64,000 nucleotides of DNA from Bifidobacterium sp. WK012_4_13 (GTDB taxonomy: Bacteria > Actinomycetota > Actinomycetes > Actinomycetales > Bifidobacteriaceae), in contig NZ_CP129683.1 of NCBI RefSeq assembly GCF_041080835.1, forward strand, positions 868,001-932,000, read 5' to 3'. The first letter of the stretch is position 1; each line of letters starts with the position of its first letter. Position numbers and translations under genes: made by a program. Positions 14,101 to 50,469 of the stretch are shown in pieces. The notes beneath the pieces are model-generated. The model did no database searches. It had not been told where the DNA came from and saw nothing but the letters and a program-made list of their open reading frames with translations.

Positions 14101-15234
14101 ATGGTGTCATCCAAAAAACCGACCGTATACGATGTCGCAAGGGAGGCGGGCGTTTCGATTGCAAGCGTCTCGCGCTCACTGCGAAAGCCAGACAGCGTCA
14201 GGCCCGCCACGCGCGAACTCATCGACCAGGCAATCGAACGTCTGGGATACGTACCCAGTGGGAGCGCACAAAGCCTTGCGGCACGAAGGACGGGCGTCAT
14301 CGGCCTGTTCATGTCAAACCTTGATGAACTTGACGACCTGAGCGACTTCACCCTCAGCAGCGTCGACGAGGCGAATGTCGAATTCGATCCGCCGCGACGA
14401 GACAACCATCATAATGACTCCCTGTATTTCGATCAGGTGCTTCGAGGCTGCGAGCTTGAGACCTGGCGGCGCGGACTGTCACTGATGGTCAATCTGGGAT
14501 TGAACCGCAATGAGAAGGGACTGACCCAACTGGCGAGCGACATGGCTGGCAAGGTGGATGGCCTGATAGTGATGGCACGCAGCGTTCCCGATTCGACTCT
14601 GGAATTTCTCAGACGCCGGGTGCCCGTCGTGATGGTCGCAGACGCCCCCTCTGACAACGAGAGCGGATATGACCTTGTGAGAGTCAGCAATCGCAAGGGC
14701 ATGAGAACGCTGGTTCAGCATCTCATCGACAGACACCATATCGATGATTTTGCCTATATCGCAGGCCCAGACGACTCCCCCGACAACCACAAGCGCTATG
14801 TCGGATTCTGCGAGGGGCTTCGAAGCCGGAACATGAATCCCGAGACCGTGCCGATCTATAGGGCGGAATTTTCATGGACGATTGCCCGCACGATCACCCA
14901 GGACATGATTTCACGACATAAGATTCCACGCGCATTGGTCTGCGCGAACGACCAGATGGCTCTTGGCGTGTGCAGGGCGCTGATGGATAACGACATTCGC
15001 ATCCCGCAGGATGTGATCGTCACCGGATTCGATGGCATCAAGGAATCCGAGACCAACGAGCCCAGAATCACGACGGTTCGCCAGCCCATGCGCAATCTTG
15101 GACGCGCGGCCGTGAGCACAATGGTCCAGAGACTCGAGAACCCGGACGCGGAACCCTTCTCGACAGAACTTCCGGTCACCCTGCTGCTGCGGGAGAGCTC
15201 GGAAGGCAGGATACCAGCTCGAGGTGGTGACTGA
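14101..15234 (+). CDS. LacI-family regulator of the glucan locus
   Basis: Encodes 377 residues. The helix-turn-helix (TVYDVAREAGVSIASVSRSL, residues 8-27) and hinge helix (SAQSLAARRTGVIG) are typical of LacI/GalR repressors, followed by a periplasmic-binding-protein-like sensor domain with ALVCANDQMALGV and VTGFDGIKES. The start at 14101 gives the usual short lead before the HTH; GGGGG lies just upstream. Residues about 73-106 form an acidic, His/Asn-rich insertion (DELDDLSDF through DNHHND) directly after the first sensor strand, where family members normally move straight on to the first helix. It is divergent from the operon it very probably represses through the paired palindromes in the intervening region. 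The inducer is unknown; an imported or partly degraded beta-glucoside is likely. Confidence 0.92.
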   Translation: MVSSKKPTVYDVAREAGVSIASVSRSLRKPDSVRPATRELIDQAIERLGYVPSGSAQSLAARRTGVIGLFMSNLDELDDLSDFTLSSVDEANVEFDPPRRDNHHNDSLYFDQVLRGCELETWRRGLSLMVNLGLNRNEKGLTQLASDMAGKVDGLIVMARSVPDSTLEFLRRRVPVVMVADAPSDNESGYDLVRVSNRKGMRTLVQHLIDRHHIDDFAYIAGPDDSPDNHKRYVGFCEGLRSRNMNPETVPIYRAEFSWTIARTITQDMISRHKIPRALVCANDQMALGVCRALMDNDIRIPQDVIVTGFDGIKESETNEPRITTVRQPMRNLGRAAVSTMVQRLENPDAEPFSTELPVTLLLRESSEGRIPARGGD

Positions 15235-15352
15235 CCTCGCTCAGTCACCACTCCATCATCACGCTCAGTCACCACTCAACCATCACTCATTACTCGCCTA
15301 TTGCGATTCATACGCGCCCTTCACAGACGTCCAGGCGTGAGCGGCAATGGCA

Positions 15353-15393
15353 AAGCGGCATCTCAGCCCTATTCACAGGCCGAGATGCCGCTT
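15353..15393. terminator. bidirectional terminator-like hairpin
   Basis: A 12-bp perfect inverted repeat (AAGCGGCATCTC with GAGATGCCGCTT), with a further GCC/GGC inside, lies between the convergent lacI-type gene and the MFS gene. T-runs are short on both sides. Confidence 0.65.
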
Positions 15394-15431
15394 ATGGTTC
15401 AAAAGGTTCGCAGCGCGCGATTGTCTTGAGA

Positions 15432-16877
15432 CTACAGGCTCGTCACTTCAGAACCGGCAACGTCATTCTCATAATCCATGTCCTTCGTTTCCCTGGTGAA
15501 TATGAGGGAGATCAAGGTCAGGACGGCAGCTGCCGAGAGATACGCACCGACAAGCCAGGTACTTCCGTGCGCGGCGCTCCACAATGCCGTCGCAATCAGT
15601 GGGGCGAGCGCGGCGCCAAGGATGGAACTGACGTTGTACGCGATCGCCGACCCCGTGTATCTCACATTCGTCGGGAAGAGTTCAGGAAGAAGGGCTCCCA
15701 TGGGTCCAAAGGTAAAGCCCATCAGAGTGAAGCCCACGATCAGGAAGGATTCCGCGAACCATGTGGTCGAGGATTGCCCGCCACGGCCATCGAGGAAGAA
15801 CGGGAACAGCAGACCGAATGCAATGATCACGCCCGTAACGATCAGCAGCAGCTTGCGGCGCCCCATCCTGTCAGCCAATGGTCCTGACACAAGCGTGAAG
15901 ATCCCGAAGAACACGACGCCGACGATCTGCATCAGCACGAAGTCGGTATAGGTGATTCCCAGTCCTGCGGGGCTGCCGTCGCTCGCGGCGGTTCCATAGG
16001 TGAGGCTGAATGTCGTCATGAAATAGAACAGCACGTATGTTGCGAGCATCGCAAACGTTCCGAGAACGACGGCCTTGAAATGATGCCGAAGTGTGTCCGC
16101 AAGTGGCATCTTCACGATGGCGCCCTGCTTCTGCGCCTTCTTGAAGGCCTCCGATTCGACGAGCTTCAATCGAACCCACAGACCGATGGCGACCATGACC
16201 GCCGAGAACACGAACGGGATTCTCCAACCCCAGCTCAGGAACGCCTCGGACTGCAGAAGCGAGCTCTGCGGATGAGGAAGCGCATAGTTGATGATGAGGA
16301 ACAGACCGTTCGCCACAATGAAGCCAAGCGGTGCGCCCAGTTGCGGGAAGGTTCCGTACCATGCACGCTTGTTCGCAGGAGCGTTCTCAGTAGCCACAAG
16401 AGCGGCCCCGGACCATTCGCCTCCAAGCGCAAATCCTTGGGTCAGACGGAGCAGCAGCAGGAAGATCGGCGCAATCACGCCAATATGGTTATAGGTGGGC
16501 AGGAACCCGATAATGAATGTGGCAATGCCCATGGTGAGCAGCGAAGTCACCAGAGTCGTCTTGCGGCCATATTTATCCCCCATATGGCCGAAGAAAACAG
16601 CTCCGATCGGGCGCGCGACCATGGCTGCGCCGAATACGGCGAACGAGGCCATCAGCGATGCCGTGTTGTTGGTGACCGGGAAGAACAGCTTGGGAAAGAC
16701 CAGAACGGCGGCAGTTGCATAGACATAGAAGTCATAGAACTCAATGGTCGTTCCAACCAGGCTTGCCGCAATGACTCTTGCCGGAGAGTTCAGTGGCTTG
16801 GCAGATTCCTGGATCGTTGCCGTGGACTGTGATGTTGCTGTTGTCGATTCTTGGATCGACGAGGACAAAGATGACAC
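15432..16877 (-). CDS. MFS transporter, metabolite:H+ symporter type
   Basis: Encodes 481 residues from a GTG preceded by AGAAGGG; upstream open sequence is non-coding. The protein shows about 12 membrane helices and the hallmarks of the metabolite:proton symporter group. These are the N-terminal phrase GTTIEFYDFYVYATAA, the loop 2-3 motif GHMGDKYGRKTTL, LTQGFALGGEWSGA in helix 4-5, and the repeated loop motif GPLADRMGRRKLLL in the second half. Members carry small organic acids or osmolytes such as shikimate, citrate, alpha-ketoglutarate or proline. The substrate cannot be read from sequence. It is transcribed alone after a long spacer and is convergent with the lacI-type gene. Confidence 0.9.
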   Translation of the reverse strand: MSSLSSSIQESTTATSQSTATIQESAKPLNSPARVIAASLVGTTIEFYDFYVYATAAVLVFPKLFFPVTNNTASLMASFAVFGAAMVARPIGAVFFGHMGDKYGRKTTLVTSLLTMGIATFIIGFLPTYNHIGVIAPIFLLLLRLTQGFALGGEWSGAALVATENAPANKRAWYGTFPQLGAPLGFIVANGLFLIINYALPHPQSSLLQSEAFLSWGWRIPFVFSAVMVAIGLWVRLKLVESEAFKKAQKQGAIVKMPLADTLRHHFKAVVLGTFAMLATYVLFYFMTTFSLTYGTAASDGSPAGLGITYTDFVLMQIVGVVFFGIFTLVSGPLADRMGRRKLLLIVTGVIIAFGLLFPFFLDGRGGQSSTTWFAESFLIVGFTLMGFTFGPMGALLPELFPTNVRYTGSAIAYNVSSILGAALAPLIATALWSAAHGSTWLVGAYLSAAAVLTLISLIFTRETKDMDYENDVAGSEVTSL

Positions 16878-22037: not shown

Positions 22038-22104
22038 ACAGCACAGCATCGGAAAACCCAGGAATCAGGCATCGGCAATAGCCGAGGCAGCCGATTTCCC
22101 GGTT

Positions 22105-27773: not shown

Positions 27774-27817
27774 AAGCCCAAGGTACTGCGCGGCTGAGAC
27801 CTAGTTTTTATCGAAAT

Positions 27818-27927
27818 TTCAAGTTTTTGGGACTTAGCCAAGTGCAGACGTCGTCTGTGGGTTCGAATTCCTTCGTCGTTTCAACGATTTGAGGCATGCA
27901 TACTTCCGCAAGTCCCAAAAACTTGAA
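27818..27927 (-). repeat. interspersed structured element, copy A
   Basis: Outer arms 27818-27835 and 27910-27927 are perfect 18-base inverted repeats. Read on the minus strand, the first 52 bases align without gaps to copies B (48581-48690) and C (50170-50297). The alignment includes GAAGTA and AATCGTTG followed by a GACG. Inside the outer stem further pairing is possible (AAGT with ACTT, GCA with TGC). It sits between dapB and dapA in the same orientation as dapA, ending 45 bp before its start. Not a tRNA, riboswitch or insertion sequence that I recognise. Confidence 0.8.
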
Positions 27928-27991
27928 GGCCCTCCCCTGGCGAAGCCTTCGCCGCAAGGGATTCCCAGGATTCAACGACCTGGAGGCGGGA

Positions 27992-45300: not shown

Positions 45301-45910
45301 TAGGAATGATCTTTGCGCCGTATACTTCCTTGTCGGACGTGCGGTCGCGGTTACGATCGAAGTAGACGCCTGGAGAACGCACGAGCTGGGAGACGATGAC
45401 TCGCTCGGTTCCACCGATGATGAAGGTACCGTGAGGGGTCTGCAATGGGAAGTCGCCCATGAAGACGGTCTGTGACTTGATTTCGCCGGTGTCACCGTTC
45501 TCGAACTCTGCATTGACGTAGAGCGGTGCGGAATAGGTGTAGTCCTTTTCCTTGCACTCCTGAACGGTGTGACGCGGCTCCTCGAAGTATGGGTCCGAGA
45601 AGGTCAGGCTCATGGTCTGTGCGAAGTTCTCAATGGGAGAAATCTCCTGGAACACCTCGTCAAGACCGGAGACATGAGCCACGTTGTGCGTTCCGTTGGC
45701 TTCGTCTTCCTCAGCCTTGGCCTGCCAACGCTCATTGCCGACCAGCCAGTCGAAGCTGTCGGTCTGAACGCCGAGAAGGTATGGGACATCGATGGGTTCA
45801 CGGATCGATCCGAAATTCACACGGTTTGGAGCCTTATGCAGTTTGATGTCGGCTTCATCGTTGCGTGCGTATGTTGTAGTGGTACTCGTTGCAGCTTTAT
45901 TGGCAGCCAA
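42341..45910 (-). CDS. rpoB: RNA polymerase beta subunit
   Basis: Encodes 1189 residues, full length for an actinobacterium. The rifampicin-binding region reads [17 protein letters not shown] then [14 protein letters not shown] (about residues 430-460). Asn449 stands where Escherichia coli has His526. The catalytic and sigma-contact regions ([31 protein letters not shown]) are intact. The start is TTG, with AAGGAAAG at a normal distance; the next in-frame Met is far inside. It is the first gene of rpoBC and has a 515-bp upstream spacer holding a candidate promoter. Confidence 0.98.
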
Positions 45911-48387: not shown

Positions 48388-48842
48388 TGTGCACTCCAAG
48401 ATTGTTGTCCGAATCCTTGATTCATCTCGACCATAGCAATTCAGGGAGTAAAACGGAATGGCGTGGCATCACTGTCACGGACAATGCACCCTTGCCAGTG
48501 CCGACATGCAGGCATTTTCGCGATCGTTGCGCCAGTCGCCACGTTTTCATCTACGAAACCGCCAGTTTCGCGCCCGGGTTGCAAGTTTTGGGGACTTGGC
48601 GAAGTACAAACCGGTGAAATCGTTGCAGTGACGGTGAATATCATGCAGCTTTCGGACCGTTCCAGCGAATGAAGTGCCAAAAACTTGCCATTCAGAGCCG
48701 AAGCGGAGATTGACACGGAGCGGAGATGACCACCACAGGTGAGATGCCGAACGTGAAATGCCAAACTTGAGATGCCGAACGGCTCGAAGATTTGAGCAAC
48801 TCCTGCTGATTCATCTATTCCACAGTCACGGTTATTCCACGG
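48388..48842. other. intergenic stretch upstream of the P-type ATPase
   Basis: No gene is supported. It holds the promoter region of the ATPase gene, where no convincing hexamers are seen, and repeat element B. Open frames across it run over the element and lack family signatures. Confidence 0.5.
48581..48690 (+). repeat. interspersed structured element, copy B
   Basis: Outer arms GCAAGTTTT.GG.ACTT (from 48581) and its complement ending near 48688 pair at 15 of 17 positions. The first 52 bases align without gaps to copies A and C. They share GGCGAAGTA and GAAATCGTTGCAGTGACG. TCGTTG could also pair with CAGCGA near 48664, giving an inner stem. It lies between two leftward genes and is itself oriented rightward. 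Confidence 0.75.
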
Positions 48843-50122: not shown

Positions 50123-50469
50123 AGACGCCACCATAACACCGCCGTTTGGCATCAGCGCGTGCCCATCCTCACCGAGATTGCGAGTTTTGCGGCAATTGCG
50201 AAGTATAAGCACTCAGAATCGTTGAAGTGACGTATGCAAACAAGGGGATTTCAATGATTACTGCTTCGCAGTTGCCGCAAAACTCGCAATCTCGGTGCGA
50301 TTTGATTGTAAAGATCGTTTCCTGTCAGAACTGTTGAATGAAATTGTTTGCTTTTGTTCGATTTATTGATAAGAATGAAGCCGATAGATACAAAGGTCGG
50401 CACAATGCGTTGAGTGACTGGCAATATGGCATGATGGCATATGCTGACGCGTGAAAAGGGGAAGTGTGC
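50123..50469. other. divergent spacer between trmL and mutY
   Basis: The central part is repeat element C (50170-50297). The remaining 170 bp before mutY are AT-rich and should contain its promoter. No additional gene is supported. Confidence 0.6.
50170..50297 (+). repeat. interspersed structured element, copy C (best-preserved stem)
   Basis: Arms 50170-50203 and 50264-50297 are 34 bases each and complementary throughout except for one T-G pair, which is still a wobble in RNA. The 60-base interior contains AATCGTTGA and TCAATGATT, which can form a second 9-bp stem. The interior GAAGTAtaa and AATCGTTGAAGTGACG match copies A and B at the same distance from the left arm. The arm sequence differs from A and B, yet pairing is complete. 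Confidence 0.85.

Follow-up and report, generated by a model that had tools for sequence, protein, structure and literature searches.

What are the short palindromes that recur between the genes of Bifidobacterium sp. WK012_4_13, and what do they belong to? Many bacteria are known to carry high-copy palindromic repeats. We analysed a window of 64,000 nucleotides of this genome (contig NZ_CP129683.1, positions 868,001 to 932,000, forward strand), which contains at positions 50173..50294 a 122-bp element on the plus strand (copy C; G000:C1:918173-918294, G000 being the window's own genome). A preliminary description had noticed copy C and two relatives, A and B, and had suggested either a structured RNA or a mobile element recognised by its hairpin. 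Our results point to a previously undescribed two-part repeat system: it appears that hundreds of short palindromes lie between genes, and that each kind belongs to its own fast-evolving, homing-endonuclease-like gene placed between two copies. The argument is made from sequence comparisons, which establish at that level the families, the phasing of their arms, the flanking of the gene, the prediction of dispersed families from gene-side arms, the joint divergence of protein and arms, the inversion of cores and the coherent change of both arms.

Copy C consists of a left arm (50173..50207, plus strand), an asymmetric core (50208..50259, plus strand) and an inverted right arm (50260..50294, minus strand), the arms being delimited by pairing analysis and the core by core comparison. 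Its arms, GAGTTTTGCGGCAATT, are those of subfamily 1. The other two copies are of the subfamily 2 type: copy A (27812..27933, minus strand, TTGGGACTT arms) lies between dapB and dapA, as we read the open reading frames, and copy B (about 48574..48695, plus strand) has decayed GGGGACTT / GCCAAAAACTT arms. All three were found where the preliminary description had placed them, with its common blocks (invariant GAAGTA, AATCGTTG and GACG) and with pairing strings consistent with its pair numbers. The copies are thus real, but their extent, given as about 110 bp with 34 pairs in copy C, needs correction. The family element is about 122 bp; arm pairing ends sharply 11 bases outside the GTTTT box, and because pairing is at chance level beyond position -11, the outer CAC/GTG pairs of copy C do not belong to the family. 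The fold z-score against shuffles was -13.8 for copy C, -4.6 for copy A and -1.1 for copy B, which we regard as decayed because of this low score; it also fell under the stem threshold of our element finder.

Copy C, used as a DNA query, found 40 places in its own genome after clustering, nearly all with 100-102 bp between arm starts. The arm pattern AGTTTTGCGGCAWT matched 41+43 times and AAGTTTTTGGSACTT (at most one mismatch) 58+58 times, with 0 matches to the reversed-pattern control in each case. Fetched stretches yielded 107 elements (subfamily 1, 45; subfamily 2, 62), whose cores are oriented almost evenly (54 versus 53) on the two strands. This number is a lower bound, as copy B was too decayed to be included and covariance-model matches also lie outside the stretches used (for example, at 45481 and 861139). 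The interspersed family with covarying arms is therefore far larger than first described, with at least 107 copies in this genome and relatives in further species. The subfamily-1 consensus reads CGAGATTCCGAGTTTTGCGGCAATTNCNAAGTATAA, a core of about 50 nt around AAAATCGTTGAAAT..CGACGG..AAGCCAAAAATC, and then the arm inverted. Nearly all listed subfamily-1 arm matches pair at about 100 bp, and for others decayed partners were extracted. The elements are small and non-coding with terminal inverted repeats, a build like that of miniature inverted-repeat transposable elements (MITEs), and form high-copy intergenic palindromes near gene 3' ends. A plasmid or phage origin was considered and dropped, copy C having no match in either collection, from which the window genome's own records were possibly excluded. 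At one locus (L093, G000:C1:1776114-1779221) three elements lie within 2.1 kb around genes that we read as oxidoreductase-like and HigA-like antitoxin genes; one of the three has closely similar copies at 2394334 and 2396836.

The covariance-model search proposed earlier gave hits at 1e-7 in 3 of 27 genus genomes, with up to 132 candidates scored per genome. The subfamily-1 arm pattern likewise matched 3 of the 27, and the subfamily-2 pattern only the window's own. Two related genomes, G005 (probably B. aquikefiri) and G006 (probably B. aquikefiricola), recur below.

The distance between the two arms is quantised. In G000, the span from GTTTT to AAAAC was 98-101 in 100 elements, 110-111 in 6 and 121 in 1, in a finder range of about 91-130. 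Pattern pairs, which require both arms to match, spanned 102-104 (30) or 113-114 (3) in B. aquikefiricola and 103-104 (12) in B. aquikefiri. Another family, GTTCATTG, a few elements of which were already among the weaker covariance-model matches, spanned 103 (19) or 113-115 (7) in B. aquikefiri and 103-104 (16) or 113-114 (6) in B. aquikefiricola. The span lists of these three genomes are complete; in a fourth, G016, spans among the 51 of 68 and 49 of 66 matches listed were 90 (1), 99-100 (9), 110-112 (23) and 122 (1). When pooled, 200 of 234 spans fell at the mode -2..+1, the other 34 at about ±11 or ±21, and none elsewhere, leaving out one pair at 235 bp in B. aquikefiri taken as arms of separate elements; the best period, among those from 8 to 13, was 11.0. 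A second finder, applied to the fetched loci with like anchors, gave 98-101 (97) and 110-111 (6) in G000, 98-100 (33) in B. aquikefiri, and 98-100 (49) and 109-110 (3) in B. aquikefiricola, as well as one GTTCATTG-family element at the usual 103. Seven elements with GTTTTGTTGCC arms spanned 99-100. We interpret this spacing in helical turns to mean that the two inverted sites have to lie on one side of the double helix; it argues against purely single-stranded recognition, such as that of REPIN repeats as folded strands with a GTAG or CGTC foot. G016 carries 134 arm matches of the TGTAGGGATT family, and the longer spacing of 110-112 bp is the commonest among its pairs listed.

Which protein might recognise these sites? 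A tyrosine (Y1, HuH) transposase was rejected as the partner: PF01797 was found in 0 of 27 genus genomes at E <= 1e-3, with 5 of 14 control genomes positive. Among the 107 elements of G000, 6 adjacent pairs lie within 1.5 kb of each other, and two of these pairs each flank one gene, the two genes being homologous (54% identity). The protein was found in 5 of the 27 genomes at 1e-8, as intact genes in G000 (2), B. aquikefiri (2), B. aquikefiricola (2) and G024 (1), a degenerate gene in G023 and a partial one in B. aquikefiricola. All seven intact genes, in four genomes, have an inverted-repeat element on both sides; the degenerate copy has an inverted repeat on one side only, and the partial copy has no such element. 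Thus, as in REPIN-type systems, a candidate enzyme gene is flanked by repeat copies in the genus, with a protein of another family. The flanking arms vary from gene to gene (those of A2 equal those of C2; those of F1, F2, C1 and A1 are partly alike). The protein, of about 280 amino acids, has an AbiEi-like N-terminal part and a C-terminal nuclease domain with an EDxHD/Vsr-like fold, in which E171, D204 and E215, by analogy the putative catalytic acidic residues, are invariant in 86 sequences. The partial gene (G006:C1:2238565-2238927, L226) holds a frame of 177 amino acids and is possibly a remnant of an older specificity. In the left element of locus L221 (G024), the core is a near-perfect palindrome inside the arms, and the same nested hairpin is seen in a G016 copy (L275).

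Arms found beside genes predicted dispersed families. The gene-flank arm TTTSTGTAGGGATT matched 101+99 times in G024 and 68+66 times in G016, in contrast to 0-2 per strand in the 25 others and 0-2 for controls. Similarly, GTTCATTGTGAACTT matched 29+39 times in B. aquikefiri and 30+25 times in B. aquikefiricola, with one match in the 25 others and 0 in controls.

Protein and arms were also compared for divergence. A single locus, between rplQ and truA (named from the flanking open reading frames), holds one of the genes in each of G000, B. aquikefiri and B. aquikefiricola. One flank of this locus is 85-87% and the other 68-91% identical in DNA; in contrast, the proteins share only 46-50% identity and have different arms beside them. 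Over seven genes, with one hand-entered arm per gene, protein and arm similarity were correlated (Mantel r 0.81, p 0.002; r 0.73 and 0.58 with one of two near-identical genes removed).

The dispersed copies also change coherently. In seven pairs of sites from B. aquikefiri and B. fermentum (here G000) with related cores, six have GTG in both arms in B. aquikefiri versus GCG in B. fermentum, and the remaining one has GCG in both species. Among fetched elements, GTTTTGTGG makes up 36 of 66 arms in B. aquikefiri and GTTTTGCGG 3 of 66; GTTTTGCGG accounts for 65 of 106 arms in B. aquikefiricola and 84 of 206 in G000, most other G000 arms being subfamily 2. This table excludes L039, whose sequence was taken from the orthologous comparison. 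Joint change of both arms at seemingly inherited sites requires that copies convert one another or that a single trans-acting factor exerts selection. Decay of methylated CpG was rejected as the cause of GCGG to GTGG, as strand symmetry would demand both GTGG and GCAG, and GCAG occurs in only 1 of 66 arms in B. aquikefiri. We also dropped a claimed switch from subfamily 1 to 2 arms at single sites (L139/L077, L145/L090, L135/L097), because the core scores of the two scorable pairs were at chance level and independent insertion is as likely.

Orthologous sites revealed inversion of the cores. Copy C lies between a TrmL-like methyltransferase gene and mutY (our own reading of the names), and its B. 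aquikefiri ortholog is the same element, in which the core has the opposite orientation with respect to the flanks (alignment score 40 for the inverted and 10.5 for the direct comparison). In 36 orthologous intergenic comparisons among three species, the cores pointed the same way in 13 and were inverted in 9, while ten comparisons gave no call of orientation and four yielded no element; sites overlap between comparisons, one no-element case (L150/L039) is a threshold miss, and the use of fetched loci biases the sample towards sites with an element in both species. For seven of the nine inversions, random element pairs attain the core score in about 1% of cases or fewer; for the other two, p is 0.08. 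Independent insertion into the same intergenic gap probably also happens, since the cores in the ten uncalled pairs look unrelated.

The preliminary description had proposed comparing orthologous regions with and without the element to see whether it inserts precisely. Sites of presence and absence were seen, but no empty-site pair at base resolution. At the site of copy B, B. aquikefiri has no subfamily-2 arm, and the stretch separating the aligned blocks is shorter by about 400 bp. At window positions 15207-15462, G005 and G006 carry an element (L143, L187) and the window genome instead has, by eye, a terminator-like hairpin; at 22042-22104 an element of G006 (L192) is absent from the window genome, the sequences being too diverged for exact ends. 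Around the 107 elements, direct matches between the flanks (2-9 bp, 8 offsets) were overall no more frequent than in shuffled flanks, giving no sign of target-site duplication; the best of the 56 cells (4 bp, offset 12) had 3 observed versus 0.6 expected, which was reached by 4 of 200 shuffles. One element (G005:C1:50221-50341, L167) is on a contig of 176,599 bases, a length that PMC11500810 gives among B. aquikefiri plasmids; the family thus also reaches plasmids.

Could the elements act as RNA, as 3' untranslated region stability elements, terminators or small RNAs? Their place near gene 3' ends (median 39 bp, versus 164 bp from 5' ends) and their long covarying stems would fit. In 68 elements, 87.3% of arm cells were paired versus 72.9% in shuffles and 24-43% when the arms were slid, with a covariation score of 0.378 versus 0.155 in shuffles. 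Covariation by itself, however, is no proof of RNA. G-T and A-C mismatches were about equal on the core-oriented strand (in the variable block, for example, 20 versus 20 and 19 versus 22), so that no wobble-pair preference on an RNA strand was seen, and core orientation relative to tandem genes was random (22 with, 25 against). A scan of the window against Rfam at the gathering threshold found one tRNA and nothing at the element copies, in agreement with the earlier statement that no riboswitch or tRNA is known that fits. With the helical spacing in several genomes and the cores inverted at orthologous sites, these results make an RNA function very improbable and speak against the structured RNA suggested in the preliminary description. 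The alternative offered there, a mobile element recognised by its hairpin, fares better in its first half: mobility is likely, though unproven, and a hairpin is a less probable target than two phased sites recognised in double-stranded form. The arms nevertheless match each other even at unconserved positions, so that a cruciform, template-switch or conversion step is still needed. Two further candidates were set aside: intrinsic terminators, as a T-run after the arms was absent by eye (no scan was made), and integron attC sites, considered for their place behind stop codons, as the copies are scattered with no cassette array and inspection by eye showed no fit to the GTTRRRY site.

A two-part system is in our view the probable explanation, with the elements as its non-autonomous members: a DNA element of about 120 bp with two arms, and a dedicated nuclease-like protein whose gene is flanked by matching arms. 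The main rival gives the same protein a role as regulator or anchor. An AbiEi-type DNA-binding regulator or chromosome-organising protein would have the elements as operators, the gene-side pair being autoregulatory, the dispersed ones regulon or anchoring sites, and the nuclease domain secondary. Such a role seems unlikely to us, as the elements lie behind genes and not before them: among 82 classed sites, 30 are convergent, 47 tandem and only 5 divergent by our own crude gene caller (window gaps of at least 60 bp, for comparison: 3, 22 and 2), with 25 further sites of the 107 unclassed and none inside a gene. In addition, no variation is seen in the candidate catalytic residues, and the families resemble selfish repeats in being high-copy and specific to a clade or species. 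Somewhat less likely still are MITEs or REPIN-like repeats moved by some other transposase, with the nuclease gene a passenger or frequent insertion site. Size, inverted repeats and intergenic placement are alike, the G016 family has no gene match, and the transposase search covered the Y1 family only; yet a passenger would hardly be flanked on both sides in seven of seven intact cases in four genomes, nor would two of only six close pairs enclose the two family genes, and neither a Y1 transposase in 27 genomes nor target duplication was found.

Several observations weigh against the two-part system as well. Closeness of elements in G000 is not special as such (6 pairs within 1.5 kb versus 7.4 expected). 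G016 has no gene match at 1e-8 despite its 134 arm matches, so that a family can exist without the gene, and the GCGGCAATT copies of B. aquikefiricola and GTGGCAATT copies of B. aquikefiri differ from the arms that at present flank the genes identified in these genomes. In the order, homologs are widespread (234 of 396 genomes sampled, at 1e-10), but of 30 loci with the best homologs 4 are flanked on both sides (one being F2 itself), 13 on one side and 13 on none, at a threshold of at least 16/20; as 3 of 78 single shuffled flanks also score at least 16, part of the one-sided matches may be chance. In three close Bifidobacterium species of another genus-level group (L231, L232, L234), the gene is flanked at one common locus by elements of about 130 bp, although only L232 passes on both sides in the automatic flank table, L231 and L234 each having a side that is shortened or decayed. 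In one of these species, G119, where the gene is flanked, 400 kb were sampled and gave one arm match; a high copy number seems to be confined to part of the family. Finally, insertion itself is unproven, because neither an empty-site pair at base resolution nor a target duplication was found.

How might the two-part system work? An assembly of the EDxHD-like protein would bind both arms from one side of the double helix and nick or cut the DNA at these sites. Repair of the break may copy the element into new intergenic sites and may also rewrite old arms to the current specificity, in a homing-like conversion, the core sometimes flipping through an arm-to-arm intermediate. We propose that elements inserted just behind genes are retained because the damage is smallest there. 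More tentatively, the elements may represent a new class of bacterial mobile repeat, in which a fusion of EDxHD/Vsr-like and AbiEi-like parts acts on paired inverted 35-bp sites in helical register, copies elements of about 120 bp and rewrites old ones as its specificity drifts, so that the protein and about a hundred sites would change together and cores flip in place.

The closest logic is that of REPtrons (REP/REPIN repeats with RAYT, or TnpA-REP), described in PMC3733652, PMC8266576 and PMC3116915 as repeats and a dedicated enzyme gene that is flanked by copies and co-evolves with them. The likeness extends to copy numbers in the hundreds and to the form and place of the copies, short palindromes between genes and near their 3' ends. 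In contrast to REPtrons, no Y1/HuH transposase was found in the 27 genus genomes, the linked protein is an EDxHD/Vsr-like nuclease, the spacing follows the double helix, the arms are long (about 35 bp) and the cores invertible. The system is thus not a REPtron by descent, as the defining enzyme class was sought and not found; some REP families, such as CGTC REPs, have no known transposase according to PMC3733652. Unlike the EDxHD homing endonuclease I-Bth0305I and the Vsr mismatch endonuclease, the protein is fused to an AbiEi-like N-terminal part and linked to dispersed repeats, and its gene is intergenic between two repeat copies and, as far as seen, not intronic. Bacterial MITEs such as RUP and NEMIS, named in PMC3733652, share a length of 70-300 bp, terminal inverted repeats and a non-coding, intergenic nature; the present elements differ in their helically quantised length and lack of target-site duplication, a parent insertion sequence having been sought as the Y1 type only. 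In the literature searched, which left most subscription journals and preprints outside, we found neither a link between DUF559/MTES_1575-type proteins and REP-like repeats nor work on bifidobacterial MITEs or REPs.

The elements of Bifidobacterium would thus be an independent repeat system, whose candidate enzyme comes from another superfamily. It has a clear physical signature, the spacing in helical turns, and one prediction has already succeeded, gene-side arms predicting dispersed families. Co-evolution of a protein with its DNA across a hundred sites is directly testable in these harmless food bacteria, and could reveal a new nuclease route for spreading DNA or a new long-site recognition pair.
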